From positions 62,001 to 126,000 of IMG/VR virus record IMGVR_UViG_3300017917_002374: DNA of 64,000 nucleotides; one strand, written 5' to 3'. Both the position numbers and the translations under genes were made by a program. Every line of letters begins with the position of its first letter. The first letter of the stretch is position 1. Shown one piece after another: positions 14,383-42,726 of this stretch. The notes under the pieces were generated by a model. That model was not told the origin of the DNA, did no database searches, and saw only the letters and a program-made list of their open reading frames with translations. The stretch comes from a virus.

Positions 14383-17300
14383 ATGTCTCAACAAATAATA
14401 AACACTGGCACTGAGCCCGGCGCAGGAGATGGCGACGATCTCTATACCGCGTTTGACAAAGTAAACCAAAATTTCACTGAGATATATAGCGGTAATGTTC
14501 TAGCAGCAAATATCGTTGTGTACAGTGTGGCCGGCCGAACCGGAAACGTAGAGCTAACAGTACAAGACATCTTGGGTGCAGCCAGCACCGGTAACATAAC
14601 ATCATTGCAACAGCAGATGGCTGCTAACAGTGCGGCCGATCGTGCTTACACTGATGCTTCCGTTGCTAATCTAAGCACAATAAGCAATATCACCCTAACA
14701 GGCGGTACCTTGGCTAATGTTCATATCACTGGACACAGCTGGGGCAATATGGCTAACCTTAGTGTATCAGGAACCATCACAGCCAGCGGCGCCATTGTGG
14801 CGTCTGGTCTCAGCAGTACAGACAACATTGTTGCAGTAGGCGATGTCAATGTGGGTGGCATCCTGCGATTTGCTGATGCCACCGAAATGAGCACAGCAGT
14901 GGCCAACGTTGATCTAACATCAACAAATGCAGCCATTGTGACAAATACCAATCGTGTGACAGCAGCCAACATAGAAATCGCTGCTCTGCGAGCCAATGTC
15001 AATGCAGCAAACACACGCATAACCAATATCAGCACAGTAGCCAATGTAGAAATTGCTGCGCTAAGAGCCAATGTTGAAGCTGCTAACACAGCCATTGTGG
15101 CTGCATCGTCAAATGCAGCAGCTCAATCTGTTGACATTTCTGCACTGCAAGCCAACGTCACAGCCATCAACTTGGTCATAGCTAACGTGGCTCCAAGCCT
15201 GACCAATGGTGCTTACCGTATGACCTTGCAGGCCAACGGCAATATAACTGTGCCGGCCGGATCACATTTTATTGCACCTGCTAACAGTAATGTAAGCATT
15301 CGCAGTACAGGTACCTTGGGCAACGCACATATTGAATGGCATGATAATGGCGACCGCGCTACTGTAAAGTATAGCAAAGACGGAGTTGAAGTATTCACCA
15401 CTAGCAGTGGAGTTCAGCGCAGTTGGAAATTTCATCCAGATGGTAGTACTCATTTTCCTCAATATGTATTTCCTCTAGGACCAGGTGCTGCTGGGCAGTA
15501 TCTGGAAACTGATGGACTGGGCACACTGACCTGGGTTGATCCTGGCAGTACAGATCTTTCTGGAGTCAACGCCAACATAACCGCTGCCAATGCAGCTATT
15601 GCTTCACTGCAATCAAATGCAGGCATCCAAGGTAGCGAAATAAATGCTCTGCGAGCAAATATCACAGCAGCCAACAGTGCCAGTGCTAGTTCCATAATCA
15701 CATTAACCACAAATGCTGCCACACAGGCCACAGCAATTAATTCTTTAAATGCCAATGTTGCCGCAGCCAATTTGGCCGTAACTGCCTTGCAGACAAATGC
15801 AGCTTCGCAGGCTGTGAGTATTTCCAATTTAGAAGCCAATGCAATCACACAAGAAAGTAGAATAATTCTTGTAAATGCCAATGTCACAGCAGCCAATGCA
15901 GAAATCACTGCTCTCAAGGCCAATGCAGCAACAAATGCAGCTCTTGCTGCTAATGCTGCTAGCCAGGCTGTGTTTATCAATCAACTGCAAGCAAACGTAG
16001 CAGCTTCTAATGTTAGAATAGCCACACTAGAATCATCTGTGAGCTTGAACACACAGGACATTGCCACTCTAACTACCAATGCAGCAGCACAACATTCAGC
16101 CATTGCAGCCAAAGCACCTATAGCCAACCCAACCTTTACTGGCACGGTAACTGCACCTGCATTAACAGTAACTGGCAATGCTATCATTGGCAACGTGAGC
16201 GCCACCAAGTTAACTGCTCAACAGATTCAAGGCAATCTGGTTAACATACCAAGCATTGTAGCAACTGGCAACATCAGTGGCGGAAATGTTTCAGCCACCA
16301 AGGGTACATTTACCAATGTTGAAGGCACACTGCTGACCGCTGCACAGCCAAACATTACCACCGTTGGCACACTGGATCAATTGGATGTTGATGGCAACGT
16401 CACAGCAGATCGTGTGATTACCAATGAGGTAGTGGGCACATTATATAATGGACCGCAACCAGGTATTCGCAGTGTAGGCACACTAACCAATCTAAATGTA
16501 ACCGGAAACATTGTTACTGAAGGCAACACTGTGAGAGCAAACACAGTGCAGGCCAATTCCATAATCACCACAAACAACATCACTGTGGGTGGTAATGTTG
16601 CTATTTCAGGCTGTTTGATCTTGTCCGGTGGCAGTGTGACCCTGAATGCTGCCAACGTTGTAACCGGAACATTCTTCGCTGACAGTGCTAATGTGTCAAA
16701 CAGTTTATTGGCCAATGTTGGTAATTTTGTTGGAAACTTAACTGCTGCCAATATCACTTCTAATGGTACCTTGGTCACAGACAATGTTGTGGCATCCAGC
16801 ATAGTGGCGTTGGGTAACAGCGTACTAGGCAATATTCAAACAAATACCATTGTGAGTTCTGACATTGTTGGTACACTGTTAACAGCAGCACAACCAAATG
16901 TCACCAGTGTGGGCACGTTGAGTGCTCTAAATGTGTCTGGTCCAGTGTCTGTAACTGGTAACGCTATAGTAAGCGACAACCTGTATGTTACAGGCAACCT
17001 TTTTGTATCCGGAAACAGCACCACAGTCAACAGTGAAAATGTAACCACATCTGAACTCACGTTAACACTGGCCAATGGTGCCCCAAGTGCTGTAGCAACC
17101 AATGGTGCAGGTATTTTGGTAGCAGTATCAAACGCTGCTATTACCTATGACAGCGCATCAAACAGTTGGGTACTGAATAAAAATGCAGTGATTGGCAATA
17201 TCAGCACAGGCAATATCTCTGCTGGTAATGTTGTAGCCACAACTGTGTACGGAACCTTGGCAACTGCTGCACAGCCAAATATTACCAGTGTGGGCACACT

Positions 17301-20300
17301 GAGCGCACTATCGGTCACAGGCAACGTGAGCTCTGGCAATGTTATTACTGTTCGTGCAGATGTAACCAGTGTGCGTTTTGGAGACAACACTGTACAAACC
17401 ACTGCGGCAAACGTGGCAATTGAAGCGTATCTTGTGCCAGTCAATGCCAATGTAGCGGCAGCCAATGTAGAAATCAACAGTTTGCGTGGTAACATCACTG
17501 CGGCCAATATTGAAATAGAAAACCTAAGAGCCAACATTTCTGTTGGTGCTAACATTGAGATCAACAGTCTGCGAGCCAATGTCACAGCGGCCAATGTTGA
17601 GATTAATAGCCTACGTGGTAACATCACTGCTGCCAATGTTGAAATTGATAACCTACGTGGTAACATCACAGCGGCTAATGCAGAAATCGTTTCTCTACAA
17701 GGAAATGTTACTGCTGCTAATGTTGAAATTGATAACCTACGTGGTAATATCACAGCAGCCAACGTTGAAATTGATAACCTACGTGGTAATATCACAGCGG
17801 CCAATGTTGCAACATCAAATGTTCAGGCCAATGTCACAGCAGCCAATGTTGAGATAGACAATCTACGCGGTAATATCACTGCTGCTAATGTAGAAATAAA
17901 CAATCTAAGAGCAAATGTCACAGCAGCCAATGCACAAATTCTACTAAGAGCCAACATTGCCAATCCAACCTTTACTGGCAATCTTGGTGCCGATATCATT
18001 AATGCCACAGGAAATGTAACTGTTGGCAACATATCTGGTGGCAAGGCTGTGTTTACAGAACTGGTATTACCAAGTTCTATCACATTTACAGGCAATGTAA
18101 CTGGCGGCAACTTGGTTACCGCTGCAAATGTTTATGCAAGCAACGTGGTAGCAACTGCTAATGTGTATGCTACCAACAGTGTGTTTGCTGATCAAGTGAT
18201 CACAGTGGGCAATACCACTGCGGGTAATTTGATAACCGCAGGTCAATTGCAGGCCAACAACATTTCTACAACTGGCAACATAGTTTCGCAATCTTATGTG
18301 GTTGGATCTACTGCATCATTCACTTATGTTTATGGACAGATAGAAACTGCTAACCAGCCACAAATCACACAGATTGGTACCTTGGCTGATTTGAATATTT
18401 CAGGCAATATCAACACTGTGGACTGGGTACTGGCTTCGGGCGGAGGTGTGTTTACTGAAGTAACTGGTACACTGAAAACCAATGCGCAACCCAGCATCAC
18501 CAGCGTTGGCAACTTGATCAGTCTTACAGTTGATGGTAATATCAGTGCAGGCAATGTTTCGGCTACCACCGCGGTATTCAATGCAGTACAAGGTGTGGTA
18601 CTAACCAATGCTCAGCCTAATATTACCAGTGTTGGTACATTAAATTCACTTGATGTAACCGGAAACATAGTGTCACTGGCCAATGTTTCTGCGGCGCAGA
18701 TCAGTGCTACAGGTAACATTTCCACTTCTGGAAACATTGTTTCCACATATGACGTTTATGCAAACAGTTTGGTACTAACAGGAGCAATCAGTCTGGTAGG
18801 CAATGCTTCTGCTGCAAACTTATCAGTTGGCAATGTGAGTGCATCTGGAAATATTACCTCGCAACAGAATATTGTAGCAGTTGGCAATATTGCTGCTGGA
18901 AATATCAGCGTGACAGGCAATGTCAATGCAGCAGGAATCAGTATCACTGGCGGTGCTGGAGTTATCAATCTTGGCACAGGTACCCTAACTGCTGGACAAT
19001 TAAACGGAAATCTATTTGCATTCAATGCAACTGTTTCAGGAACCACAGAATCAATATCCAGTACCAGCGGAGCATTAATTGTAGTTGGCGGAACTGGAAT
19101 TGGTGCGAACCTCAATGTAGGTGGTAACCTAAATGTAGCAGCAAATGCTAGAATCAGTACCAATCTTGTGGTGGCTGGCGACTTTACTTCAGGCAATGCC
19201 AACATTGGTACATCAGACGGTACCAACTTTGTGTTTGGTGTTACCAACTTCAAAGGCACCACACTAGAATCAGACAACAGCAATATTGCACTGTTTACTA
19301 CCACAGTGAATCAAATTGAGTTTGGTCTAGCTGCACAAGATATTGAAATTGGTGCGCTGCTAGGTAACACCACTATCAATCATGATTTGATTGTGGGCGG
19401 CAATATCTATGGTAACCTAGGCAACGCTTCTCCATCCAGCAATATATTTGTACACAGCAATCTAGCAGTAAGCAACTATGCTATTGCCAACAATGCTGTG
19501 ATTGCCAATGCCAACGTGGTAACCAAACTCAGCATTGATGGCACTGCTGCAAGTCTAAATGCTCAGGCAGGTGCGTTAACTGTAGCAGGTGGTATTGGTG
19601 TAATCAAGAACATCAGCGTTGGTATACCAAACACACCAAACAGTAACGTGATTGTTTATGGTACCACCCAGAGTACCAACTCAACTTCTGGTGCACTTCA
19701 AGTACGAGGTGGCACAGGCATTGGCGCCAACTTACATGTGGCTGGTATTACTCATATCACCAACACCACACCAGCTACCAGTAATGTAACCGGCGCACTG
19801 CGTGTGTCAGGTGGAGCTGGTATAGCAGGCAATCTGTATGTGGGCAGCAGTGTTGTGATTGATGGCGACTTTATTGTTTACGGTACTCCAACACTACCTT
19901 CTATTTCCATTGGTAGCTTGAACAACACACCAGTTGGTAATGCGGTGCCAAGTACTGGAACATTCACTGTTCTAAGTCTTGATTCAGATTACATGCGTCC
20001 TCGCAGCAAGCCTAGCTTGCTTCTGGATTTTGCTAATGGCAGAAAGCTAGATGGTAGACTGAATTTTAACGGACCCATTTATGGTACCTATGTAAACAAG
20101 CAAGGATTCTTGGTAGACGTGGTTTCAACTGGTATCTATGCTGGACAAACTCCACGATTCCATCATAACAGCGATGGTGAGTGCCAAGGCATACTGATTG
20201 AAGAAGAAAGAACAAATCATTTATTTGGTAGTGAAAGTTTTGAACAAGCAAACACTCTCTATTGGGTAACTATTAATTCTAGTGTAGTAGGCGGAGCAAC

Positions 20301-21282
20301 TTCTGGTAATATTGGACCACGAGGAACCACCTCAGGTGTAACTTATGTTCAAGAAGATTCGTCAACTGGTATACATGGAGTGGCTGTAGAAAGTGGTTCT
20401 TTGTACACCGCTAATCTTGCAACCAACTATACTGCCAGCGTGTTTGCTCGTAAAGGTACTAGAGATCAGATTGCTATCATCTTTGATGGCGAAGGTACGC
20501 CAACTGTGTTTGATTTGAACTTTGGCAATATCACCGCAGAAGGTGCTACATATAGAAGCAGTATAGAAAGCTACGCTAATGGATGGTATCGTTGCTTCAG
20601 TACTGTGAGTAAAACCAACACCAGTGGCAATGTTACTATTGCCATGGCCAGTGGCGGAAGTACAACCTACACCGGCGACGGTGCTAGTACGCTTGAAATT
20701 TTTGGAGCGCAACTTGAAGAAGGTGATTTTGGAACCAGTTATATTACTACTACCAATACCACACGCACAAGATTTTCAGACGATCTACAAATTCCTGGCA
20801 TCTACAAAGACAGCTGGATGGAAGGTAACAATGGTACTGTGTACATTGACGGTACTATTGGTTATAGACCAACTGATTTAGTTACACAGAACACTCGTGG
20901 AGTATTCTTTAGTTTAGAAGATGGTACAGCAAGCAATCGTATACAGGTTCTGGCAGAAACTCGTTCATCACCAGTTCCAGTACGTTTTGCTAATCTAGTG
21001 GTAGTAAGCGGTGGTTCAATTCAGGCCAACATTGGTGGACAAGGAAACTTGTTAACCACATCATCTGGTCGGATATCTGCTCTGTTCAGTCCTAATCTGT
21101 TTGGATTCAGCTTTAATGCAAACACTGTGGTTACAGACATATCTGGTACACTGGGTGATGTTATCACCATGTACATTGGTAAAGGATCCGGAGGAAACTA
21201 TTTGAATGGCTGTGTGAGCAAGATACAATACTATCCTACTGTGCGTTCAACCAGTGATATACAAACATTAACAAGGCAATAA
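14383..21282 (+). CDS. giant repetitive tail-fibre protein (2299 aa)
   Basis: Residues 1-40 hold an attachment motif shared with two other fibre genes here (DGDDLYTAFDKVNQNFTEIY). Then come Ala/Asn-rich coiled-coil repeats (about 160-590), beta-structured repeats with AQPNITSVGTL...L-x-V-x-GN (about 640-1000), a run of 14-residue repeats (1025-1190), more beta repeats, and TSGAL-x-V-x-GG-x-GIGANL modules (about 1555-1830). From about 1868 (RPRSKPSLLLDF) the C-terminal 430 residues change to a compact lectin-like domain with ERTNHLFGSESF and WYRCFSTV, likely the receptor-binding tip. Trimeric fibre assembly is expected. Driven by a late promoter. Confidence 0.82.
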   Translation: MSQQIINTGTEPGAGDGDDLYTAFDKVNQNFTEIYSGNVLAANIVVYSVAGRTGNVELTVQDILGAASTGNITSLQQQMAANSAADRAYTDASVANLSTISNITLTGGTLANVHITGHSWGNMANLSVSGTITASGAIVASGLSSTDNIVAVGDVNVGGILRFADATEMSTAVANVDLTSTNAAIVTNTNRVTAANIEIAALRANVNAANTRITNISTVANVEIAALRANVEAANTAIVAASSNAAAQSVDISALQANVTAINLVIANVAPSLTNGAYRMTLQANGNITVPAGSHFIAPANSNVSIRSTGTLGNAHIEWHDNGDRATVKYSKDGVEVFTTSSGVQRSWKFHPDGSTHFPQYVFPLGPGAAGQYLETDGLGTLTWVDPGSTDLSGVNANITAANAAIASLQSNAGIQGSEINALRANITAANSASASSIITLTTNAATQATAINSLNANVAAANLAVTALQTNAASQAVSISNLEANAITQESRIILVNANVTAANAEITALKANAATNAALAANAASQAVFINQLQANVAASNVRIATLESSVSLNTQDIATLTTNAAAQHSAIAAKAPIANPTFTGTVTAPALTVTGNAIIGNVSATKLTAQQIQGNLVNIPSIVATGNISGGNVSATKGTFTNVEGTLLTAAQPNITTVGTLDQLDVDGNVTADRVITNEVVGTLYNGPQPGIRSVGTLTNLNVTGNIVTEGNTVRANTVQANSIITTNNITVGGNVAISGCLILSGGSVTLNAANVVTGTFFADSANVSNSLLANVGNFVGNLTAANITSNGTLVTDNVVASSIVALGNSVLGNIQTNTIVSSDIVGTLLTAAQPNVTSVGTLSALNVSGPVSVTGNAIVSDNLYVTGNLFVSGNSTTVNSENVTTSELTLTLANGAPSAVATNGAGILVAVSNAAITYDSASNSWVLNKNAVIGNISTGNISAGNVVATTVYGTLATAAQPNITSVGTLSALSVTGNVSSGNVITVRADVTSVRFGDNTVQTTAANVAIEAYLVPVNANVAAANVEINSLRGNITAANIEIENLRANISVGANIEINSLRANVTAANVEINSLRGNITAANVEIDNLRGNITAANAEIVSLQGNVTAANVEIDNLRGNITAANVEIDNLRGNITAANVATSNVQANVTAANVEIDNLRGNITAANVEINNLRANVTAANAQILLRANIANPTFTGNLGADIINATGNVTVGNISGGKAVFTELVLPSSITFTGNVTGGNLVTAANVYASNVVATANVYATNSVFADQVITVGNTTAGNLITAGQLQANNISTTGNIVSQSYVVGSTASFTYVYGQIETANQPQITQIGTLADLNISGNINTVDWVLASGGGVFTEVTGTLKTNAQPSITSVGNLISLTVDGNISAGNVSATTAVFNAVQGVVLTNAQPNITSVGTLNSLDVTGNIVSLANVSAAQISATGNISTSGNIVSTYDVYANSLVLTGAISLVGNASAANLSVGNVSASGNITSQQNIVAVGNIAAGNISVTGNVNAAGISITGGAGVINLGTGTLTAGQLNGNLFAFNATVSGTTESISSTSGALIVVGGTGIGANLNVGGNLNVAANARISTNLVVAGDFTSGNANIGTSDGTNFVFGVTNFKGTTLESDNSNIALFTTTVNQIEFGLAAQDIEIGALLGNTTINHDLIVGGNIYGNLGNASPSSNIFVHSNLAVSNYAIANNAVIANANVVTKLSIDGTAASLNAQAGALTVAGGIGVIKNISVGIPNTPNSNVIVYGTTQSTNSTSGALQVRGGTGIGANLHVAGITHITNTTPATSNVTGALRVSGGAGIAGNLYVGSSVVIDGDFIVYGTPTLPSISIGSLNNTPVGNAVPSTGTFTVLSLDSDYMRPRSKPSLLLDFANGRKLDGRLNFNGPIYGTYVNKQGFLVDVVSTGIYAGQTPRFHHNSDGECQGILIEEERTNHLFGSESFEQANTLYWVTINSSVVGGATSGNIGPRGTTSGVTYVQEDSSTGIHGVAVESGSLYTANLATNYTASVFARKGTRDQIAIIFDGEGTPTVFDLNFGNITAEGATYRSSIESYANGWYRCFSTVSKTNTSGNVTIAMASGGSTTYTGDGASTLEIFGAQLEEGDFGTSYITTTNTTRTRFSDDLQIPGIYKDSWMEGNNGTVYIDGTIGYRPTDLVTQNTRGVFFSLEDGTASNRIQVLAETRSSPVPVRFANLVVVSGGSIQANIGGQGNLLTTSSGRISALFSPNLFGFSFNANTVVTDISGTLGDVITMYIGKGSGGNYLNGCVSKIQYYPTVRSTSDIQTLTRQ
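17455..17950 (+). repeat. 42-bp coding repeats (14-residue coiled-coil units)
   Basis: About a dozen tandem in-frame units with consensus NVEIDNLRGNITAA. Several neighbouring units are nearly identical at the DNA level (GATAACCTACGTGGTAA recurs), which favours slippage or recombination that changes fibre length. Two heptads per unit fit a trimeric coiled coil. Confidence 0.8.
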
Positions 21283-21710: not shown

Positions 21711-21718
21711 AATAAATA
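21711..21718 (+). promoter_or_regulatory. late promoter AATAAATA
   Basis: 7 of 8 match to the late octamer, 21 bases before the next fibre gene. Confidence 0.58.
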
Positions 21719-21739: not shown

Positions 21740-22669
21740 ATGAGCATTGAAAATATTGGTATAGGCGCAGCAGCAAATGATGGAACTGGCGACTCCATAC
21801 GTGATGCTTTTAGAAAAACCAACAATAATTTTTCTTATCTTGATAGCCTGACACAAAATCTAGTCACAGGCAATCTCACAGCGGTCGGAAATATTGCGCT
21901 GGATTTTACTGCAAACAGCTATTGGTCGGGTAATGTTTTTCTCAATGGAATTCAGATAGCCACAGTTGGTACGCTGTTCACAGGTGGACAAGTTTCTGGA
22001 GCAGCGGGCAGTACAGATTTTCAGTTGACCACAGACAGTACTAACACAACCACCGGTGCTGTGATTGTACGAGGCGGTATTGGTGTTGTTGGTAATGCTT
22101 TTATAGGAAATACTACCACTTATAATCTTACTGCAACTGGCGCAGTGGGTGCAGCAGTTTTAAACTCAGGCAGCGGAACTTTCACAGGAGCAGTGGGCAC
22201 TGGTGCTTTAACAGTTACAGGCACCGCCACTGCCACCGGCAACATCACAGCAGGCAATGTGAGTGCAGCCACCAGCAACAACACCAAGAGAAATGTTGCT
22301 GCATATTTTGGTTACTTCCAGGAAGTCAATGGCACACTATTAACAGCAGCACAACCAAACATTACCAGTATAGGCACTCTCACACAGTTGGCTACCACTG
22401 GCAATGTTTCTGCGGCCAACATAGTGTTAAGTGGTTGGGGCAATGTGGTGGCAGCCAATGCCACATTCAGCGGAAGAACCATCACCGGTAATCTACAAGT
22501 AGGCAACGCTGTGATTGCAGGCGGTAATGTAACTGCCAGCAATGTGGTTGCTCAGGTCGGAACATACAGTAATCTCACAGTGCAAGACATACCCTCAAAT
22601 TTCCACGTGACCACCAAAGGTTATGTAAATAGTCTAGTGGTTGCATTTGCAATTGGACTCGGATCATAA
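21740..22669 (+). CDS. tail-fibre protein (309 aa)
   Basis: Opens with the shared attachment motif AANDGTGDSIRDAFRKTNNNFSYLDSL, followed by TTGAVIVRGGIGVVGNAFIG and AQPNITSIGTLTQL repeats like those of the giant fibre, and ends with TKGYVNSLVVAFAIGLGS. Looks like a short fibre built from the same module set. Late expression. Confidence 0.72.
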   Translation: MSIENIGIGAAANDGTGDSIRDAFRKTNNNFSYLDSLTQNLVTGNLTAVGNIALDFTANSYWSGNVFLNGIQIATVGTLFTGGQVSGAAGSTDFQLTTDSTNTTTGAVIVRGGIGVVGNAFIGNTTTYNLTATGAVGAAVLNSGSGTFTGAVGTGALTVTGTATATGNITAGNVSAATSNNTKRNVAAYFGYFQEVNGTLLTAAQPNITSIGTLTQLATTGNVSAANIVLSGWGNVVAANATFSGRTITGNLQVGNAVIAGGNVTASNVVAQVGTYSNLTVQDIPSNFHVTTKGYVNSLVVAFAIGLGS

Positions 22670-22687: not shown

Positions 22688-25600
22688 ATGGCAAAGAAAC
22701 AGATTTCAAAATATAAATTTACACCAGGTGTTATTGGTGTTGGCAACGTTATCATTCCTGGTAACTACAACACTGACAAAATCCTATTGATTACCAACGT
22801 AACTCGAGGCACAATTTTGTACAATTTTGCTGACACGCAAAACGTTGGTGCCACTGTAACTTTTAAACCAGGTGGTATCAAAACCAGCGTAGCTGATACT
22901 TCTGTGGTTACCTATGGTAAAGATGTGTTTGGTGTAACCGGTACTGCAAACATTCAACGTGTGGAGTCAGGATATGGTGAAACCACAATCACTTTTACTG
23001 GTGCCAACACCTTCACACATTCTGCTTCTGATAGAATCAGTGTGCTAGTAGAAGAGCCTTATCAAATGGTGCGCATGTGGAGTGATTTTGGAACAGACGC
23101 CATTGAACGTACTCGTATCGCAGCACCTCAATCACAGATTGACGCTGACTTTGAATACGGATTACAAAACACCAAGTGGCAAGGATTTCAAACCATAACC
23201 AACTATCCCAGTATCTATGAATCCATTGCACCTGATCTAGTGGTAACCAATGTAACCACTGATGGTGCAGACCCTAGTTTGATCACCGTGAGTTGCAATG
23301 CTCACGGGCTAGAAATTGGCGACCCGTTTACTGTGAGCCAACTGTTGGTAGACATCACCGGCTTTGGCAAAGCTGAAGGCGGATTTTTGGTGTATTCTAA
23401 AAATACAAACGATTTCAGTTACTATGCCAAAGGTCAAGTGGGCACAGTTGGTCAAAGTTTAAAAGATCCTAGAACACAGATACGCAAAGGCGGAATTTAT
23501 TCTGGTGCCGATTTGCCTCTAAGCCACATGGCCACAGACTTGGCTACACCAAGCGAAATCAAACTCAGCTTTACCGGACCTCACGGTTTCGTTCCGGGCA
23601 TGCCTATTGTTATTAATGCCAACCCCAACTGGGGCAGCAATACCAGCTTGCAAAATCTACCAGGATCTTATTTTGTGGATACTGTGGTAAACTACAACGA
23701 AGTTACTTTTACCGCACGAGGCATTGTGAATCCCAGCGGCAGCAGCAACGTTGGCAATCTACAACTTGACAACAGCGGCGGCATTAGAGTGTATGCACGA
23801 CCAGATGGTTTCTTTACTCACCGACCAGGTGATGGTGGTGTGATCATTGGTACCAACAGTCCAATACATGGTGCTGCTGCAACACGTCAAAGTAAAAAAT
23901 ATTTCCGTTATCAGTCTGGTAAAGGTTTCTTATACACCACTGGTGTGCTGTTTGCACCCAACTACGACATTGTGGAAATCACCGCATCTGGTACAGTGGC
24001 AACTGCTCCTTTGCCTACTATCACTGTTCGTACAGCAGTTCCACATGGTCTACAAATAGGCGCAGTGGTACGTGTGCGTGGAGTGGCAACTTCAGGATAC
24101 GACGGAACCTATACAGTGACCAACGTGCTTGACGAATATAGAGCACAGTTTCCTCTAATTTCAGGACAAAACCTAGGCAGTGCAACAGGTGCAGTCACAA
24201 GATTGCCCAAACTTTATATCTATCAATGGCACGGTGCATGTTTGCGTACAGGTCCCCATGATGATAGCAACGGAATGTTTTTTGAATACGATGGAAAATA
24301 TTTCAACGTGGTCAAACGTACCAGCACACTACAACTGGCCGGAACTGTGCAAATTACCAATAATAGCAACAAGTTGATTGGAACCAATACCTTGTGGGAT
24401 CAACAGCTAAAAATTGGTGACAAGATTGTGGTCAAGGGCATGGTACATCGTGTGACCAGTATCACTGCCGGAGGCCTTGAAATCTCCATAGCGCCAGATT
24501 TTAGAGGTATCAGTTCCAGCGCAGGCAACTACATTTATAAAGTAGAAGAACAACGTACCGATCAGCCAAACTTTAACAGAGACACTGCGGATGGATCAGG
24601 AAGTATTTTCAACCCTAGTGGTTATCTAATGGATCCAAACCACATGCAGATGGTGGGCATTCAGTTCAGCTGGTATGGTGCAGGTTTCATGGACTTTATG
24701 GTACGTGGTATTGATGGTAATTTTATTATTTTGCACAGATACAAGCAAAACAACATCAACATTGCAGCTTCCATGCGTACTGCTAACTTGCCAGTACGAT
24801 ACGAAGTGATCAATGAAGCAGGGTCTGGCGTGACGGGAATTAGTGCTCTTACTGCTGGCATGACTGCATTGTCAAATCAAGTTGGCGTTGATGATGCTAG
24901 CTTTTTCCCAGACAGCGGCACTGTGTTGATTGAAAATGAGTTGATTTCTTATGCATCAAAAACAATCACAGGAGCAGCACCACACACTCTAAACGGTCTT
25001 ACAAGAGCTGCCAATTATAGTATTTTTGTTAGTGGAGCTTCAAGAACCTTTACTGGTGTTGCAGCAACCACACATGGCATAGGAGCAGGTGTAGAACTAG
25101 TGAGTTTAACCGCTACACCAAACATGACACACTGGGGAAGTTCTTATATCATGGACGGTGGTTTTGACCTTGATAGAGGATACATCTTCAGTTACACAGT
25201 TACAGATGCCAATATTGTGACCACAGGAAACACAGTGATGGGCCTACGACTAAGTCCGAGCGCCAGTAACTCAACTGTGGGCGATTTAGGTGAACGTGAG
25301 CAGTTGAATCGTGCTCAGATTCTGTTGAATAATCTAGAGCTCAGCTGTTCTGACCAGCGCACAGGCGGTAACGTGCAAATACTAGTCTCAGGAATATTGA
25401 ACCCTGGCAACTACAGTGAAACCAATCAACAGTGGGTAAATCTTAATAATACTGTTGGTGGCAATCAGCCTAGTTTCTCACAGTTAACTGCCAACTGTTT
25501 CTTTGTTTCACAAACACATGTGGGACAGTCAGGACAGATTGCAGCACCAGGAGAAAAGGTGTTTGAGTTTGTTTTTGATCCACAGAACAAACAAACATTT

Positions 25601-25819
25601 GACCTAAGTGGAGTCAAGGAACTGAGTCAAAGTGCTATTGGTGGACGAGGAACTTTTCCAAACGGGGCAGACACTCTATACCTAAATTTACGTGCGCTAC
25701 CAGGTGCAACCACTTTGAATGCTTCAGGCGGCGCCACAGGAATCACCGGAGCTACCACCGCACAAACATTTGTAAGCAATGTGCATATAACTTTACAGTG
25801 GTCCGAGGGGCAGGCCTAA
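22688..25819 (+). CDS. large virion structural protein (1043 aa)
   Basis: Starts ISKYKFTPGVIGVGNVIIPGNYNTDKILLITNVTRGTILYNF, a block I recall from large structural (baseplate or tail) proteins of T4-like cyanophages. Two Ig-like or beta-sandwich inserts with NAHGLEIGDPFTV and VPHGLQIGAVVRVRGV follow, and a C-terminal part with GATTLNASGGATGITGATTAQT. No enzyme motif seen. Exact location in the particle unknown. Confidence 0.7.
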   Translation: MAKKQISKYKFTPGVIGVGNVIIPGNYNTDKILLITNVTRGTILYNFADTQNVGATVTFKPGGIKTSVADTSVVTYGKDVFGVTGTANIQRVESGYGETTITFTGANTFTHSASDRISVLVEEPYQMVRMWSDFGTDAIERTRIAAPQSQIDADFEYGLQNTKWQGFQTITNYPSIYESIAPDLVVTNVTTDGADPSLITVSCNAHGLEIGDPFTVSQLLVDITGFGKAEGGFLVYSKNTNDFSYYAKGQVGTVGQSLKDPRTQIRKGGIYSGADLPLSHMATDLATPSEIKLSFTGPHGFVPGMPIVINANPNWGSNTSLQNLPGSYFVDTVVNYNEVTFTARGIVNPSGSSNVGNLQLDNSGGIRVYARPDGFFTHRPGDGGVIIGTNSPIHGAAATRQSKKYFRYQSGKGFLYTTGVLFAPNYDIVEITASGTVATAPLPTITVRTAVPHGLQIGAVVRVRGVATSGYDGTYTVTNVLDEYRAQFPLISGQNLGSATGAVTRLPKLYIYQWHGACLRTGPHDDSNGMFFEYDGKYFNVVKRTSTLQLAGTVQITNNSNKLIGTNTLWDQQLKIGDKIVVKGMVHRVTSITAGGLEISIAPDFRGISSSAGNYIYKVEEQRTDQPNFNRDTADGSGSIFNPSGYLMDPNHMQMVGIQFSWYGAGFMDFMVRGIDGNFIILHRYKQNNINIAASMRTANLPVRYEVINEAGSGVTGISALTAGMTALSNQVGVDDASFFPDSGTVLIENELISYASKTITGAAPHTLNGLTRAANYSIFVSGASRTFTGVAATTHGIGAGVELVSLTATPNMTHWGSSYIMDGGFDLDRGYIFSYTVTDANIVTTGNTVMGLRLSPSASNSTVGDLGEREQLNRAQILLNNLELSCSDQRTGGNVQILVSGILNPGNYSETNQQWVNLNNTVGGNQPSFSQLTANCFFVSQTHVGQSGQIAAPGEKVFEFVFDPQNKQTFDLSGVKELSQSAIGGRGTFPNGADTLYLNLRALPGATTLNASGGATGITGATTAQTFVSNVHITLQWSEGQA

Positions 25820-31157: not shown

Positions 31158-34100
31158 ATGGCTAGTTTAGTTAACCCATCAAACATTAACGGTAATTTTC
31201 CTATTGCAGGTCAGGACAACGATTCGCAAGGATTCCGAGACAATTTTACCAACATTCGCAATAACTTTACTTTTATCAAAGCAGAAGTAGAAGATTTGCA
31301 GAGTAAAGCAGTGTTAAAATCTGCGCTGATTGGCAGTACTCTTGACAATAACTTTTTAGGCAGTCAACTAAAAAATACCCAACTGAAAAATTATGCAGAA
31401 ACACTGTATGATTGGGGAAACACATCAGGTGAAATTCAGCTGGATCTGGCACTTGGAAATGTGCATAAACTTTATACTGATGGTTCTATCAGTATCAACA
31501 GCGTTATTAAAAACTGGCCCTCAAGTTTGCAATATTCTAGACTGCTGCTTTATATCACAATCAGCAACACAGCTCATACTCTTACAGTTCCAAACAATAT
31601 TACCACAAGTCTTGAAGGTTTACCTGGTCTGAGATTTATTGGTAGTAACAACCTAGTCAAGTTCCCAGAGAGTGGAACTTATGTTTACGAATTCAGCAGT
31701 GTTGACAGTGGTACCACAGTGTTTGTTAGAGAACTCACACGTGGTAATCAACTGTTCCGTGATCCAAATTTTTACTTTACAGACATTGGTGCAGGTTCCA
31801 GTTCAGGTTCACATCCTAGCGGTTATGAACCCGTCACACTGAAATTAAACTACGGCAATGTACTATCAATATCAGGAAACATTGATAGTGCAAAAAATGG
31901 CTTTGATGCTCTTAGTGTCAAAGGTGGTGTGAGTTCATACCTGGCATTTAACACCAGTGAAGGCAGTAATGACAGCTCTCTCATGCGTTCTGCAGGCTTT
32001 TCTGTGTCAAGATCGCGAGCAGAAACTCCTCTTGATGGCACAGCAGTAACTTTATCCAGTGGCGAAAGAGTACAAACTGGCGACTTTATTGGATACTTTA
32101 ATGCTCTTGGTCTTACACAATCTGTGGTTGGATCAACTTATCCATTCTTACAGCTAGGTGCAGTACAATTCTATGCCAACGGTAGTTCAAATAGCATTGG
32201 TGGTAATATTGTTATTGCTACAAAAGCCGATGGCGGTAGTCTTACTCCGGCTATGATTATTGACAATGGCCAGAATGTTAGAATCGCTGGCAACTTGACA
32301 GTGGATGGCAGTACTACCACTATTAATTCAACTGTGCTCACAGTTGACGATAAAAACATTATTGTAGCATCTGGTGTTGCAAGTGCTACCGCTGCCAATG
32401 GATCTGGTATTGCTGTTGACACTGTGTTTGCCAACATTGAATACCATGGCCCTACCTCCAGCCCTGCTGTTAGTACTTACGGTGGCGGCGATCGCTGGAT
32501 CAGTAATAAATCTTTTGCTATTGCAAACACTGCTACCAGTACCAGTAGCACAACCGGTGCATTGGTAGTTGCAGGCGGTCTTGCAGTAGGAGAAAATCTA
32601 AATGTAGGCGGAACTTTTGGTCTAACATCATCCACAAACTCAACCAGCAAAGACACAGGTGCATTTGTGCTTACAGCGGGCGGCCTTGGTGTTGAGCTGA
32701 ACATTGTGGCAGGAGGTATGATTTCTGCCAACAGTACCGAAGAATCTACAACAACAACCAACGGTGCTCTAGTATCCAGAGGTGGTCTGGGTGTAACCGG
32801 CAAGGCTTTGATTGGCGGCAATTTATTTGTTACCTCTGATATAGAAAGCACCAGCAGCACGATAGGTGCTATTATCACATCAGGTGGGGTTGGCATCGCC
32901 AAACGATTGAACGTTGCAGGGAATGTTGTGTTTAACAGTGGTACTAACAGTACCTATACCATGGGTAGCAGTGGTACCAGTTATACAGGTGCATTGATTG
33001 TGAGTGGTGGTGCACATGTGACCAAAACACTGAACATTGGCAATGATGCTGGCGACGGACAACTGATAATCAACGTGCCAACTAGTGCGCTGGATGCAGT
33101 TGAAGGTACCAGTGACACCGGCGCACTGATTGTTGGTAGTGTGACCAATGGTAGAGCTGGTGGTATGAGTGTAAGCGGCAACTTTAACCTAGGCTCTGAC
33201 GCTAACGGAACGCTGTGGATAAGAAGTCAGCTGAATGCATTTGGTACCGTGATAAACAACCCAGCTAGAAGTCCGTATAGCCTTGCTGAAAATGCCTATG
33301 GTTCAGCCACTGTGCAAGGCGGTGTAAACATATTTGGTAACCTATACGTAGGACAACCACATAATACACCAGCAGGTGGTGCATTAACGTTCCCTTTACA
33401 AAACACTGGTAACATTTATATTCAGTCAGGTACACCTAGTATCAGTGCTCTTACTGGAGCCTTGGTTATTCAGAAAGTAAGACTACCAAGTGGATACAAT
33501 CCTGCTACAAGTCCAGATGGGTTCAGTTATGGTGGCTTGGGCATGGAGGGTAACCTTTATGCAGCTGGTAACGTGATTCTTGGCGGTGGCGGTAACGGCG
33601 ACGCCATTAGCAATGTTGTGGTTGATGCAACCACAGTGGCAGTTACCACTTCAAGAGCTGCTCTAGTAGTCAAAGGCGGTGTTGGTATTGCAGGTGTTAC
33701 ACAAACAGCTGGTAACATTGTATCCTCATCCGGTACCGCAGGTAGAATTGGAGCAGCTGGTGCCAAAGAAGGCGCACTGGTTCTCACAGCAGGCGGCGCA
33801 TACATTGAAGGCGCTAGTGTGATACGTGGCAACCTGGTACTAGACGGTGGTAGTGCAAGTGCAAGTACCACAACTGGTGCATTAGTTATTGCTGGTACTG
33901 GCGGTTTGGCAGTTGGCGGTGCTACTAACCTAAACGGCGACATTAGTATTGCTGGTGCAACAGCTGGCGGCAGTGGTACCGGAGCACTGCGTGTGGTGAA
34001 CGGTGGTGCAAGCATAGGCGGTAACTTGTTTGTTCAAGGTGCAACCATGCCAATCAATGCTATTGGATCCAGCGGAGTTGCCCTGTTAAATGCCACTGGC

Positions 34101-34544
34101 ACTAACCAGAGTGTTGTGAACAGTGCAGCTGACATTACAAACCTTAACTTTACTCCAGAACAAGGCAAAAACTACTACTTTGAAGCCTGGATTTTTCATG
34201 ATGCAACATCCAGTGGCGGGGCAGCGGCTATAACCAAAGGATTTGATGTTACTGTGACTGCAATTGGAGCTGGTGGTACAGGATCTATTGCGTATGTGGT
34301 GGAACAAAACATAACATCAACTGGTGCTCTGTTAGTAAGCAGTTCTGCTACAGGTGGTACCAACTTGCCGCAAACCACAGCTTCTACTACCAGTATAACC
34401 AACTTGCTTGCTAAAATCACAGGAACTTTTTACAATGCAAATGGCCCAACCAATCTTAAACTGCGTTGTACTGTGTCGGGCAGTGCCACAGCAACCGCTG
34501 TGCTGAATGCTCGTAGTTTCCTAAAGTGGACCAAGTTGAACTAA
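31158..34544 (+). CDS. large tail-fibre protein (1128 aa)
   Basis: N-terminus with the shared attachment motif in diverged form (DNDSQGFRDNFTNIRNNFTFIKAEVEDLQ), a globular region to about 380, then more than ten modules of the type STTGALVVAGGLAVGENLNVGG, and a compact C-terminal domain (FTPEQGKNYYFEAWIFHD...) that may bind the host. Third fibre of this locus. Late promoter boxes upstream. Confidence 0.76.
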   Translation: MASLVNPSNINGNFPIAGQDNDSQGFRDNFTNIRNNFTFIKAEVEDLQSKAVLKSALIGSTLDNNFLGSQLKNTQLKNYAETLYDWGNTSGEIQLDLALGNVHKLYTDGSISINSVIKNWPSSLQYSRLLLYITISNTAHTLTVPNNITTSLEGLPGLRFIGSNNLVKFPESGTYVYEFSSVDSGTTVFVRELTRGNQLFRDPNFYFTDIGAGSSSGSHPSGYEPVTLKLNYGNVLSISGNIDSAKNGFDALSVKGGVSSYLAFNTSEGSNDSSLMRSAGFSVSRSRAETPLDGTAVTLSSGERVQTGDFIGYFNALGLTQSVVGSTYPFLQLGAVQFYANGSSNSIGGNIVIATKADGGSLTPAMIIDNGQNVRIAGNLTVDGSTTTINSTVLTVDDKNIIVASGVASATAANGSGIAVDTVFANIEYHGPTSSPAVSTYGGGDRWISNKSFAIANTATSTSSTTGALVVAGGLAVGENLNVGGTFGLTSSTNSTSKDTGAFVLTAGGLGVELNIVAGGMISANSTEESTTTTNGALVSRGGLGVTGKALIGGNLFVTSDIESTSSTIGAIITSGGVGIAKRLNVAGNVVFNSGTNSTYTMGSSGTSYTGALIVSGGAHVTKTLNIGNDAGDGQLIINVPTSALDAVEGTSDTGALIVGSVTNGRAGGMSVSGNFNLGSDANGTLWIRSQLNAFGTVINNPARSPYSLAENAYGSATVQGGVNIFGNLYVGQPHNTPAGGALTFPLQNTGNIYIQSGTPSISALTGALVIQKVRLPSGYNPATSPDGFSYGGLGMEGNLYAAGNVILGGGGNGDAISNVVVDATTVAVTTSRAALVVKGGVGIAGVTQTAGNIVSSSGTAGRIGAAGAKEGALVLTAGGAYIEGASVIRGNLVLDGGSASASTTTGALVIAGTGGLAVGGATNLNGDISIAGATAGGSGTGALRVVNGGASIGGNLFVQGATMPINAIGSSGVALLNATGTNQSVVNSAADITNLNFTPEQGKNYYFEAWIFHDATSSGGAAAITKGFDVTVTAIGAGGTGSIAYVVEQNITSTGALLVSSSATGGTNLPQTTASTTSITNLLAKITGTFYNANGPTNLKLRCTVSGSATATAVLNARSFLKWTKLN

Positions 34545-34551
34545 TCAACTC

Positions 34552-34580
34552 TTGACCTCCTAGTTTGAAAAGTGTAAACT
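34552..34580 (+). promoter_or_regulatory. sigma70-type promoter of mazG
   Basis: TTGACC (34552-34557), 17-base spacer, TAAACT (34575-34580); expected start near 34587, inside the right arm of an inverted repeat. Confidence 0.65.
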
Positions 34581-34594
34581 ATTCACTAGGAGGT
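34555..34594 (+). promoter_or_regulatory. 10-bp inverted repeat masking the mazG ribosome site
   Basis: ACCTCCTAGT (34555-34564) and ACTAGGAGGT (34585-34594) are perfectly complementary, with 20 bases between. The right arm contains the AGGAGG Shine-Dalgarno sequence of mazG. RNA reading through from the fibre genes could fold and hide it; RNA started at the internal promoter lacks the left arm. A repressor operator over the promoter is an alternative. Confidence 0.6.
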
Positions 34595-34598
34595 TCTT

Positions 34599-35033
34599 AT
34601 GACCGTAGATTTAAACAGATACAAAGATTTTGTTCAAGCGGTGACCAGTCAACCCTCAAACGATCTAACCACATTCATGAACAGGTTAGATGAATTAGAT
34701 GGTAACTGGGATGCTGCGACTCAGTCGCATGGACCAGACGTCAACGTGCCGCTACTGCTTACTGGTGCATTAGGCCTGGCTGCCGAAACTGGAGAGTTTT
34801 GCGAAATTCCCAAAAAAATGTTTTTTCAAGGCAAGCCACTCACAGAAGAAAATGTGTTTCATATGAAACGTGAGCTAGGAGACATCATGTGGTATTGGAT
34901 TAACGCATGTAGAGCTTTGAACCTAGATCCAAATGATGTTATAGATGAGAACGTAAATAAATTAAAAGCCCGTTATCCTGGTGGAACATTTGATGTACAT
35001 CACAGCGAGAACCGGCAACAAGGAGACATATAA
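34599..35033 (+). CDS. mazG: MazG-like nucleotide pyrophosphohydrolase
   Basis: 144 residues, all-alpha NTP pyrophosphatase. The metal-binding acids are visible: E63-x-x-E66 (AAETGEF) and E92-x-x-D95 (RELGDIMWY), with the C-terminal KLKARYPGGTFD typical of phage MazG. It hydrolyses nucleoside triphosphates to monophosphates; in phages it has been proposed to act on nucleotide pools or alarmones. Strong AGGAGG ribosome site within a switchable hairpin, and its own sigma70 promoter, point to early expression and shut-off late. Confidence 0.87.
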   Translation: MTVDLNRYKDFVQAVTSQPSNDLTTFMNRLDELDGNWDAATQSHGPDVNVPLLLTGALGLAAETGEFCEIPKKMFFQGKPLTEENVFHMKRELGDIMWYWINACRALNLDPNDVIDENVNKLKARYPGGTFDVHHSENRQQGDI

Positions 35034-35272
35034 TGTATCATCCATTGGCACCAAATCTCAGCGAGTTTACAGATCAACAGTTACATGAAAAATATAATGA
35101 ACTGATGAGCAAAATAAATCAAGCGTATAAATTTGGGCCAACTGGTGCGATTCCGCAAATGCAACTGATGCAAGCACATTTTCAAGAGGAAATACATCGT
35201 CGTAATGCCAAGCAGCTGGAAGAGATGCAGAGCAAGACCAAAGATTTCAACAAAATAATTGATATCAAATGA
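35033..35272 (+). CDS. small helical protein (79 aa)
   Basis: Start overlaps the mazG stop by one base. Two helices with EFTDQQLHEKYNELMSKINQAY and QLMQAHFQEEIHRRNAKQLEEM. I recall similar short proteins (LTDxxLxxKxxEL...) in T4-like aquatic phages near structural genes; function unknown. Confidence 0.62.
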   Translation: MYHPLAPNLSEFTDQQLHEKYNELMSKINQAYKFGPTGAIPQMQLMQAHFQEEIHRRNAKQLEEMQSKTKDFNKIIDIK

Positions 35273-35778
35273 AGTACGATGCCAGCGGAGTACATTATAC
35301 AACTGCACACGAACTGTTTGATTTATTATATCAACGGCCAGATTTAGAGCTTGGCCGTTTCAATGTAGTAGATCCAGAAATTTTTAACTATGCAGTTGGT
35401 CTCTTGTATGCAGACGTTCCTAAACTAAAACAGTTTAACCAAGTTTATGATATAAAAGCATTTGATGAACAAAATCAAACTCAGTGGTTGATGCCCGCTG
35501 ACTATTACGAACTGGATATTGCAGAATGGGTGTTGGACCAGTGTAGCAATGATGCAGAATTACAACGCTGCGGCGAAGAACTGCTGTTGTATCAAGAACG
35601 TGATGCATTTAATCTGTTGCGCTATCTCAAGTATCTTGTGGACGTTATGCGCAAACATAACATTGTTTGGGGAGTGGGTCGCGGTAGCAGTGTGGCCAGT
35701 TTTGTGCTTTACAAAATTGGAGTGCATCGTATCAACAGTTTGTACTATGATTTAGATCCGCAAGAATTTTTAAAATAA
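35269..35778 (+). CDS. DnaE-like fragment (C-family polymerase alpha motif)
   Basis: 169 residues. The C-terminal third, IVWGVGRGSSVASFVLYKIGVHRINSLYYDLDPQEFLK, matches the stretch G-x-GRGSAAGS-L-x-x-Y-x-L-x-I-T...PL-x-Y-x-L-x-F-x-R-F-L of bacterial DNA polymerase III alpha (GVGRGSS at 135-141). It stops just before the position where DnaE has its catalytic Asp pair, so it cannot polymerise. The N-terminal two thirds are not recognised. It may bind nucleotide or DNA, or mimic host polymerase. Overlaps the upstream gene by ATGA. Confidence 0.68.
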   Translation: MKYDASGVHYTTAHELFDLLYQRPDLELGRFNVVDPEIFNYAVGLLYADVPKLKQFNQVYDIKAFDEQNQTQWLMPADYYELDIAEWVLDQCSNDAELQRCGEELLLYQERDAFNLLRYLKYLVDVMRKHNIVWGVGRGSSVASFVLYKIGVHRINSLYYDLDPQEFLK

Positions 35779-37028: not shown

Positions 37029-37952
37029 ATGAAAGAACTTTGGGTAGAAAAATATAGACCTCGCACAGCTGACCAGTATGTGTTTGTAGACGAAACACAG
37101 CGAGAACAAGTGCAGAGCTGGATCGCTGCCAAACACATTCCACATCTACTGTTTCACGGTGGTCCAGGCACAGGCAAGACCACATTGGCTCGTATGCTGA
37201 TCAACGAACTGGGAGTGGATGAGTATGATGTAATGTATGTGAATGGATCCAAGGAAGGTCGTAAGATTGAATGGATTGATCGCCTGATCAGCTTTTGTCA
37301 GACCATGCCGTTTGGTGAATTCAAGGTAGTACTGGTAGACGAAGCAGACTACATGAACAAGGAAAGTGTGCAGCCTGCACTGCGCAACCTAATGGAAGAC
37401 TACAGTAGCAGTGTGAGATTTATTCTCACCTGTAACTATCCTCATAAGATTATTCCGCCATTGCACAGTCGTTTCCAAGATTTACATATTGCCAAAACAG
37501 ACCACACAGAGTTTACTGCTCGTGTGGCCACAGTGCTGGTGTCAGAAGGCATAGAATTTGATTTGGACACACTGGACAGTTATGTTAAAGCCACTTATCC
37601 AGATCTACGTAAGTGTTTGAATCTTGTGCAACAGAACAGTACCACTGGTTCACTGAACCGACCACGAGAAGGCGAACGTGGTGTAGGCGATTGGAAGTTG
37701 GACTGTGTGCATCTGTTTAAAACAGGTAAGATTCGTGAGGCTAGAACTCTGCTGTGCAGTCAGGCACAACCAGAAGAAATGGATGAGATTTTTCGCTGGA
37801 TGTATGACAATATTGATTTGTTTGGCAAGAGTACAGAACAGCAAGATGAGGCAATCAAAATCATTCGTAATGGCATTGTGAATGCCAACTATGTAGCAGA
37901 TGCTGAAATCAATCTCAGCGCAACACTAATTGAACTAGGACAACTATCATGA
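37029..37952 (+). CDS. 44: sliding-clamp loader AAA+ subunit (gp44 type)
   Basis: 307 residues of the clamp-loader family. Starts LWVEKYRPRTADQYV, the usual opening; Walker A GGPGTGKT (44-51, Lys50), Walker B VLVDEADY (DEAD 104-107), and the clamp-loader SRF motif (147-149) after LTCNY (sensor 1). The ATPase uses ATP to open and load the sliding clamp (gp45) for the DNA polymerase at the end of this window. ATGA overlap with the next gene, which stands where T4 has gene 62 but does not look like it. Confidence 0.92.
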   Translation: MKELWVEKYRPRTADQYVFVDETQREQVQSWIAAKHIPHLLFHGGPGTGKTTLARMLINELGVDEYDVMYVNGSKEGRKIEWIDRLISFCQTMPFGEFKVVLVDEADYMNKESVQPALRNLMEDYSSSVRFILTCNYPHKIIPPLHSRFQDLHIAKTDHTEFTARVATVLVSEGIEFDLDTLDSYVKATYPDLRKCLNLVQQNSTTGSLNRPREGERGVGDWKLDCVHLFKTGKIREARTLLCSQAQPEEMDEIFRWMYDNIDLFGKSTEQQDEAIKIIRNGIVNANYVADAEINLSATLIELGQLS

Positions 37953-39135: not shown

Positions 39136-39164
39136 TTGACCCAAAAGGTCCCATTTGTTATACT
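39136..39164 (+). promoter_or_regulatory. sigma70-type promoter, cassette copy 1
   Basis: TTGACC (39136-39141), 17-base spacer, TATACT (39159-39164); expected start near 39171, followed by a leader that recurs at the next promoter. Confidence 0.7.
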
Positions 39165-39670: not shown

Positions 39671-39699
39671 TTGACCAAAAATACCCATTTCTGTATAAT
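39671..39699 (+). promoter_or_regulatory. sigma70-type promoter, cassette copy 2
   Basis: TTGACC (39671-39676), 17-base spacer, perfect TATAAT (39694-39699); expected start near 39706, at the start of the duplicated leader. Confidence 0.72.
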
Positions 39700-40715: not shown

Positions 40716-40747
40716 ACTCTAATTTTCCTTTACAATAGGTATAAATA
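40708..40747 (+). promoter_or_regulatory. overlapping sigma70 and late promoters of dnaK
   Basis: TTGAAT (40708-40713), 17-base spacer, TACAAT (40731-40736), start near 40743. A perfect TATAAATA (40740-40747) follows, with a T4-type start near 40753. Gives both early and late dnaK transcripts. Confidence 0.65.
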
Positions 40748-40750
40748 TTT

Positions 40751-40779
40751 GCATACAGGTGCCACATGGGCCTGTATGC
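40751..40779 (+). promoter_or_regulatory. 9-bp hairpin in the dnaK leader
   Basis: GCATACAGG (40751-40759) and CCTGTATGC (40771-40779) pair perfectly with an 11-base loop, 12 bases before the AAAGGAG ribosome site. The early transcript would contain the whole stem; the late one would start inside its left arm. Confidence 0.62.
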
Positions 40780-40806
40780 AAAACCATTTGTTAAAGGAGA
40801 ATAAGA

Positions 40807-42726
40807 ATGGCTAAAATCATAGGTATCGACCTAGGTACCACCAACTCATGCGTAGCCGTAATTGAAAACGGCAAACCCAAAGTAATTGAAAATTCCGAAG
40901 GCGCACGTACTACACCCAGTATCGTTGCTTACGCCAATGATGAAATTCTAGTAGGCGCACCTGCCAAACGTCAAGCAGTTACCAACAGCAAGAACACTGT
41001 GTATGCTGCCAAGCGACTGATTGGGCGCAAGTTCAAAGACACAGAAGTACAAAAGAATATCAAGCACACTCCCTATGCCATTGTGGAAGCAGACAATGGC
41101 GATGCTTGGGTACAAGCACAAGACAAAAAACTAGCACCACCACAGATCAGCGCAGAAGTGTTGCGCAAAATGAAAAAGACTGCTGAAGACTATCTTGGTC
41201 AGCCGGTTACACAGGCAGTGATCACAGTGCCTGCTTATTTCAATGACAGTCAGCGTCAAGCAACCAAAGACGCAGGTAAAATTGCCGGTCTAGAAGTGCT
41301 GCGTATTATCAACGAGCCCACTGCTGCTGCGTTGGCATATGGCTTGGACAAAGGCGCTAAAAAGGACAGCAAGATTGCTGTTTATGACCTTGGTGGTGGT
41401 ACCTTTGACGTATCGATCATTGAAATTGCCAATGTTGAAGGCGACATGCAATTTGAAGTATTGGCTACCAATGGTGACACACACCTTGGCGGCGAAGACT
41501 TTGACCAAAAGATCATTGACTATCTGATTGAAGAATTCAAGAAAGAAACAGGCACTGATCTCAGTAAAGACACACTGGCACTACAGCGTTTGAAGGACGC
41601 TGCTGAAAAAGCCAAGATTGAATTGAGTAGCGGTGCTCAGACCGAAGTGAATCTGCCTTATATCACAGCAGATGCCACAGGTCCTAAACACATGAACATC
41701 AAGATCACTCGCAGCAAGTTTGAAGGCTTGGTTACTGATCTTGTGGAACGTTCAATTGAGCCTTGCCGTCAAGCCTGTTTTGATGCTGGGCTAAAGCCTA
41801 GCGAGATTGATGAAATCATTCTCGTGGGTGGACAAACTCGTATGCCTATGGTACAAGGTTATGTGGAAAGCTTCTTTGGCAAGGCTCCACGTAAAGATGT
41901 GAACCCAGACGAAGCAGTTGCCGCGGGAGCGGCCATCCAGGGTGATGTGTTGGGAGGCGGCCGAACGGACGTTCTCTTGTTGGATGTCACACCACTCTCA
42001 CTGGGAATTGAAACCATGGGCGGTGTTATGAGCAAGCTGATCAACAAGAACACTACCATTCCTACAAAGACCAGCCAGATTTATAGCACGGCTGATGACA
42101 ATCAGCCAGCAGTTACTATCAAGGTGTATCAAGGTGAACGTGAAATGGCACAGCACAACAAACTGCTGGGCGAGTTCAACCTGGAGGGCATTGATCCTGC
42201 ACCACGCGGCATGCCACAGATTGAAGTTAGTTTTGACATTGACGCTAACGGTATTTTGACTGTGAACGCCAAAGACAAGAAAACTGGCAAGGCCAATAAC
42301 ATTACTATTAAGGCCAACTCCGGTCTAACCGAAGAAGAGATTGCCAAAATGGTGCGCGAAGCTGAAGAAAATGCCGAAGCTGACAAAAAACAGCGCGAAC
42401 TGGTTGAGTCACGCAACACAGCAGAGCATCAGATCTGGGGTGTTGAGAAAAAGCTCAAAGAGCATGGCGATCAGCTTACCGAAGAACAGCGCGAGGCTGT
42501 TAATGACCATCTAAAGAAAATTCGTGAGGCCATGGCAGGCGAAGATGTGGACGCTATTCAAAAGTCCATTGAAGAAGCAGTGCCCAAGTTCATGCCTTTG
42601 ATGGAGCTCAGTCAAAAAGCCGAAGCTGAAAAGCAAGCAGAAGTAAAAGCAGCACCGCAAGCAGAATCATCAGATGCAAAAGACGATAATGTTGTTGATG
42701 CTGAATTTACTGAAAAGAAAGACTAA
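40807..42726 (+). CDS. dnaK: Hsp70 chaperone DnaK
   Basis: 639 residues, full length (E. coli 638). ATPase domain with IDLGTTNS (7-14), the phosphate-binding [12 protein letters not shown] and LVGGQTRMP; linker [19 protein letters not shown]; substrate-binding domain with NTTIPTK and YQGERE; C-terminal lid, and a tail [11 protein letters not shown] like bacterial DnaK. No ATPase residue seems missing. It holds unfolded proteins with help from a J-domain partner; one is encoded at 47634. Blocks such as GDAWVQ and [24 protein letters not shown] resemble betaproteobacterial DnaK, suggesting capture from a host. Early and late promoters, leader hairpin, terminator directly behind. No grpE seen. 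Confidence 0.96.

Follow-up and report, generated by a model that had tools for sequence, protein, structure and literature searches.

The mazG gene in the window, which is the whole stretch of 64,000 nucleotides analysed here (positions 62001-126000 of a 355-kb virus record), is preceded by a hairpin that brackets the -10 element of a sigma70-like promoter and holds the Shine-Dalgarno (SD) sequence of mazG in its right arm. We consider it probable (roughly 0.7) that this element serves mazG and the nucleotide and replication genes after it as an insulated promoter, with RNA reading through from upstream being silenced. Given the timing that we infer for the genes involved, the early-promoter hairpin would be the mirror image of the late-gene switch of phage T4, present in dozens of related phages. 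The length of the parent record suggests that it belongs to a jumbo phage.

Structure and surroundings of the element

The two arms, ACCTCCTAGT and ACTAGGAGGT, are exact reverse complements of 10 bp separated by 20 nt, and AGGAGG lies in the right arm, as the earlier note had described (Table 1). The promoter consists of TTGACC, a 17-nt spacer and TAAACT, the last matching TATAAT at only 4/6 positions. That note had placed the promoter inside the hairpin, which holds for the -10 element but not for the entire promoter, because three bases at the 3' end of the -35 element already belong to the left arm. The folding energy of the hairpin corresponded to z = -2.8, and equally stable structures were obtained in 1/200 shuffled sequences. 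Pattern searches located the exact element at a single place in the 355-kb parent record, and searches for it gave no match in Rfam and no near match in named phages.

The upstream open reading frame runs in the same direction as mazG, its end lying 10 nt from the left arm. The block 3' of mazG includes Cpn10, a gp44-like clamp loader and a PolIII-alpha-like fragment, a short conserved ORF (window 35269-35778) similar to part of DNA polymerase III alpha (phrog_11127). Fourteen ATAAATA late cores were found in the window, all on the + strand and most of them directly 5' of an ORF.

Table 1 Positions of the hairpin element, neighbouring genes and related promoters (window coordinates unless another record is named)
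Feature	Position	Strand	Basis or remark
-35 element TTGACC	34552..34557	+	Sequence; TTGAC invariant across 21 aligned sequences
Hairpin left arm ACCTCCTAGT, anti-Shine-Dalgarno	34555..34564	+	Covaries with right arm among relatives
Loop region	34565..34584	+	In most relatives folds as inner stem around the -10
-10 element TAAACT	34575..34580	+	TATAAT in most relatives
Hairpin right arm ACTAGGAGGT	34585..34594	+	
Predicted transcription start, within right arm	34587	+	From -10 position (7th base past the -10)
Shine-Dalgarno AGGAGG of mazG, inside right arm	34588..34593	+	
U-rich tail TTCTT past stem	34594..34598	+	Degenerate copy of the U-tract of most relatives
mazG, MazG-like nucleotide pyrophosphohydrolase, 144 aa	34599..35033	+	ATG at 34599; Pfam PF03819 1.3e-8, phrog_229 1.4e-47
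Upstream gene encoding 1128 aa, fibre/virion-structural-like; presumed late and presumed origin of read-through RNA	31158..34544	+	Weak PHROG structural match
Tail genes farther upstream	14383-21282		
T4-type late promoter core ATAAATA, 5' of structural genes	21712..21718	+	
Tail fibre gene, upstream	21740-22669		Weak match
Virion structural gene, upstream	22688-25819		
Clamp loader (gp44-like), presumed early, block 3' of mazG	37029..37952	+	phrog_168 3.7e-74
Ordinary early-type TTGACCAAAAANACCCATTT promoters	39136-39164, 39671-39699		
Ordinary early-type TTGACCAAAAANACCCATTT promoters	Parent record 41405, 41699, 43414, 47857, 59190, 59577, 59878, 159051		
Late-promoter GATAAATA hairpins before neck gene	L033 4435, L016 5025, L063 1830, about 37 other places in L007-L080		
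Phosso hairpin GAAAACTC/GAGTTTTC	L223 154-218		

Occurrence among mazG relatives and other gene families

A MazG scan yielded 80 viral contigs as relatives. TTGAC promoters directly before mazG were present in 26/80, and in 24 of these 26 the promoter lies in a hairpin with the SD as the right arm, mostly with energies of -20 to -26 kcal/mol. Two relatives, L065 and L069, have instead a stand-alone terminator, AGAAACCTCCTTTTAAGGAGGTTTCTTTTT, with the promoter directly after it, and thereby solve the same problem in another way. In Sinorhizobium phage Phosso, which is cultured and has the same gene order, an 8-bp hairpin (GAAAACTC/GAGTTTTC) covers part of the mazG SD, and the possible promoter inside it is suggestive only. 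The isolated phages Atu_ph07 (mazG) and PA5oct showed no such hairpin at mazG or the clamp loader.

The same design was found before at least four gene families besides mazG. A scan of the collection with the pattern TTGACTCCT..TATAAT..AGGAGT, and thus preselected for CTCCT/AGGAGT, matched at least 120 stretches. Among the matches listed, most distinct ones have stems far longer than the searched words and some unrelated ones have no extended stem; the genes downstream encode a 178-aa exonuclease (phrog_255), a 53-aa membrane-like protein, the MHPL protein (whose gene follows mazG in the window) and MazG. Wherever a gene lies upstream in these named families, it has the same direction. The genes that precede the exonuclease and membrane-protein families (MazG-like, Cpn10, membrane protein) do not clearly belong to the late class.

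Proposed mechanism and predicted SD accessibility

In the mechanism that we propose, in which promoter activity, read-through, termination, translational repression and timing are all putative, RNA made from the sigma70-type internal promoter would start in the right arm and lack the left arm, leaving the SD free. Read-through RNA from the co-directional late virion gene would contain both arms, and the hairpin would take up the SD and leave mazG untranslated, so that MazG, as the earlier note had suggested, may be expressed early only. Most relatives have a U-tract behind the hairpin. In these, a large share of the read-through transcripts would probably also end in the short stretch separating SD and start codon, and SD masking would act as a second layer when the ribosome ending the upstream gene blocks termination. 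Since the U-tract of the window copy is interrupted, masking should dominate there. The upstream stop codon lies 10 nt from the stem, and thus a terminating ribosome could transiently open the window hairpin.

The predicted probability that the SD is unpaired was 0.000 in the read-through (long) RNA of the window and 0.348 in the promoter (short) RNA. The families gave predicted values of 0.00 for long and 0.30-0.49 for short RNA, whereas those of control promoters hardly changed (0.45 long, 0.54 short). The claim that read-through RNA would mask the SD and promoter RNA would not is strongly supported by comparison at the level of sequence and folding models, as it is backed by covarying arms, a G-U bias, the computed SD accessibility, the co-directional upstream gene and a late mirror version of the element. 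The U-tract that makes the hairpins of most relatives terminator candidates, the late and early hairpins of the sister lineage and the occurrence of the design beyond mazG go further than that note.

Masking and termination

Of the five bases that follow the SD, at least four are T in 88% of early-type hairpins and in 4.3% of 1,068 other starts. With a U-tract after the stem in most relatives, the element is probably an intrinsic terminator as well, though a weak one in the window copy. The terminator score was above 0 for 80% of the mazG copies, 96% of the exonuclease copies and 94% of the 53-aa-protein copies; only the between-group comparison of this score is relied on. Furthermore, the corresponding passage from late to early genes carries a stand-alone terminator in L065, L069 and the isolated jumbo phages Munch, CBB and XaC1. 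These findings would fit an element that is simply the intrinsic terminator of a late virion operon, sharing its sequence with the next promoter and SD, so that masking is incidental; given the strong U-tract of the relatives, selection could have acted chiefly on termination. We regard this explanation as unlikely. A near-perfect hairpin is kept without a good U-tract in the window, where the tail is TTCTT and the terminator score -4.6, and also in L027, L032, L066 and most dNMP kinase copies. The stems mostly start 6-29 nt past the upstream stop codon, a distance at which a terminating ribosome represses terminators (PMC4824070), and the late-promoter hairpins of the relatives scored mask the SD although a U-tract is absent. 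Stems kept without a U-tract, together with the repression of terminators by ribosomes, suggest a two-layer insulator with masking as the shared core.

A stable stem right after a stop codon could also serve mainly to protect or process the 3' end of the virion mRNA, as an RNase barrier or an RNase III site. We think this improbable, since it leaves the fixed placement of -35, -10 and SD in the stem unexplained and the same design stands at genes with unrelated upstream genes.

Covariation and RNA pairing of the arms

Among the relatives, the arms vary in sequence yet stay complementary, for example CTCCTTATATAA/TTATATAAGGAG in L005 and TCCTATCCAACA/TGTTGGATAGGA in L032, plus others, and 10/16 arm pairs have changes on both sides. 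For these sequences, which are related to each other and thus phylogenetically dependent, arm covariation was 0.233 compared with 0.157 in shuffled alignments, a value that 0/500 shuffles reached and that was also above all slid versions. The arms were aligned by a scheme that scored every non-Watson-Crick pair alike (G-U = A-C), and the mismatches comprised 120 G-U and 21 A-C. Within the stem there were 104 G-U and 13 A-C, at 47 and 12 distinct positions and in 61 and 5 sequences, respectively. Because a DNA palindrome predicts equal numbers, the large excess of G-U indicates selection on pairing in the sense RNA.

These data bear on the possibility that the repeat acts as DNA and controls the promoter through a protein, as an operator, or through supercoiling, as a cruciform; the earlier note had named the operator as a refutation. 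The repeat is symmetric over the -35 and -10 elements with the -10 in the loop, as an operator might be; however, the arm sequences differ among relatives, so that no common protein site exists, and the sense-strand G-U pairs outnumber A-C about 6:1, which makes an operator very improbable. Coincidental pairing of a promoter -35 followed by CTCCT with an ordinary AGGAG is already refuted statistically, since, although TTGACTCCT and AGGAGT are short complementary words and L122, L126, L130 and L178 have both without an extended stem, the stems are 9-16 bp long with covariation, and SD-including helices in the shuffled upstream sequence of SD-preceded starts reached 10 bp in 0/1,722 and 9 bp in one.

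Late-type hairpins and presumed timing boundaries

In the other mazG relatives, the gene commonly next after mazG is a neck gene (head-tail adaptor, phrog_211), and its SD is masked by a hairpin holding the T4-type late promoter GATAAATA, with about 40 matches. The arms of these hairpins also drift yet remain complementary. After the neck gene there is often a dNMP kinase gene (phrog_139) with an early-type hairpin promoter, so the order in the sister phages is mazG, late-promoter hairpin, neck gene, early-type hairpin and dNMP kinase. This order suggests that the hairpins mark each switch of presumed timing class. Late-type SD-masking hairpins are also found at the neck and tail sheath genes of Pectobacterium phage CBB (L236), Xanthomonas phage XaC1 (L237) and Salmonella phage Munch (L238). 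In these three phages the stand-alone terminator lies just 5' of the dNMP kinase gene, and that of Munch is annotated in its record. We give about even credence to the broader proposal that a widespread phage element of about 50 bases fuses promoter, intrinsic terminator, SD and mask, and that a whole group of T4-like phages places at its late/early switches a promoter-in-hairpin whose class agrees with that of the next gene (late-type for late genes, early-type for early ones).

Comparison with known systems

In the T4 genes e, soc, 49 and I-TevI, the hairpin that masks the SD encloses a late promoter, and the T4 hairpin genes reviewed are all late (PMC3014915, PMC2988022). As in those genes, the SD here is predicted to be sequestered only in longer transcripts initiated upstream, and RNA from the internal promoter would, by its predicted start, lack the 5' strand of the helix. 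In contrast, T4 uses the late promoter TATAAATA for late genes, whereas here TTGACC-17-TAAACT stands before mazG and the clamp loader, the RNA silenced is presumed to be late, and many copies are also terminator-like. A late promoter was looked for in the element and not found, and the element would therefore work like the T4 device without being a member of that group. The late-promoter hairpins at the neck and sheath genes of the relatives, Munch, CBB and XaC1 share the geometry and the phage group and lie on the other side of mazG, but belong to the opposite timing class and, in the relatives scored, lack a U-tract.

In IS10/Tn10, read-through RNA folds and hides the ribosome-binding site (RBS) of the transposase gene. 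IS200 guards against transcription from outside with one stem that terminates it and another that occludes the RBS (PMC3196728). The element resembles both in that the fold of read-through RNA would hide the RBS, and the IS200 stem-loop terminates incoming RNA too. However, IS200 uses two separate stems, whereas a single stem, with the promoter inside it, appears to serve both purposes here; furthermore, the IS genes are transposase genes at the end of a mobile element, whereas the product here is a MazG-like pyrophosphohydrolase encoded within a block of phage genes. The stand-alone terminators followed by promoters (L065, L069 and Munch neck/dNMP kinase) likewise insulate an early-type gene from its upstream gene, but with terminator, promoter and SD as separate sequences. 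The hairpin promoters of the N4 virion RNA polymerase have a 5-7 bp stem and a 3-nt loop and are not known to contain a -35/-10, unlike the stem of 10-20 bp with sigma70-like -35 and -10 elements found here. A search of open PMC papers found no description of a hairpin of this kind with an early-type promoter in it.

If the proposed reading is true, phages with dense gene blocks of mixed timing would use one RNA trick both ways. The element would then be a sequence signature from which temporal class and operon borders could be predicted in uncultured phages, and it could provide a compact one-piece insulated promoter for engineering.

Other promoters and hairpins in the same phage

About ten ordinary TTGACCAAAAA promoters without a hairpin were found in the same phage. 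Since its ordinary early promoters are stemless, the hairpin was rejected as a general promoter consensus. An ordinary early-type family reads TTGACCAAAAANACCCATTT..TATAAT followed by GTAAC..AAGGAG, and a hairpin is absent from it. CTCCT...AGGAG occurs at seven further places in the parent record by pattern search, only one of which has matching 7-bp arms. This is a leader hairpin (CTCCTAG/CTAGGAG, near base 1500 of L228, parent record 154994-155016) that lies 3' of a TTGACA promoter and leaves the real SD uncovered; it contains another AGGAG and is possibly a decoy or stabiliser. Before the phage Hsp70 gene (window 40741-40807), the late core TATAAATA is followed by an inverted repeat, GCATACAGG..CCTGTATGC.
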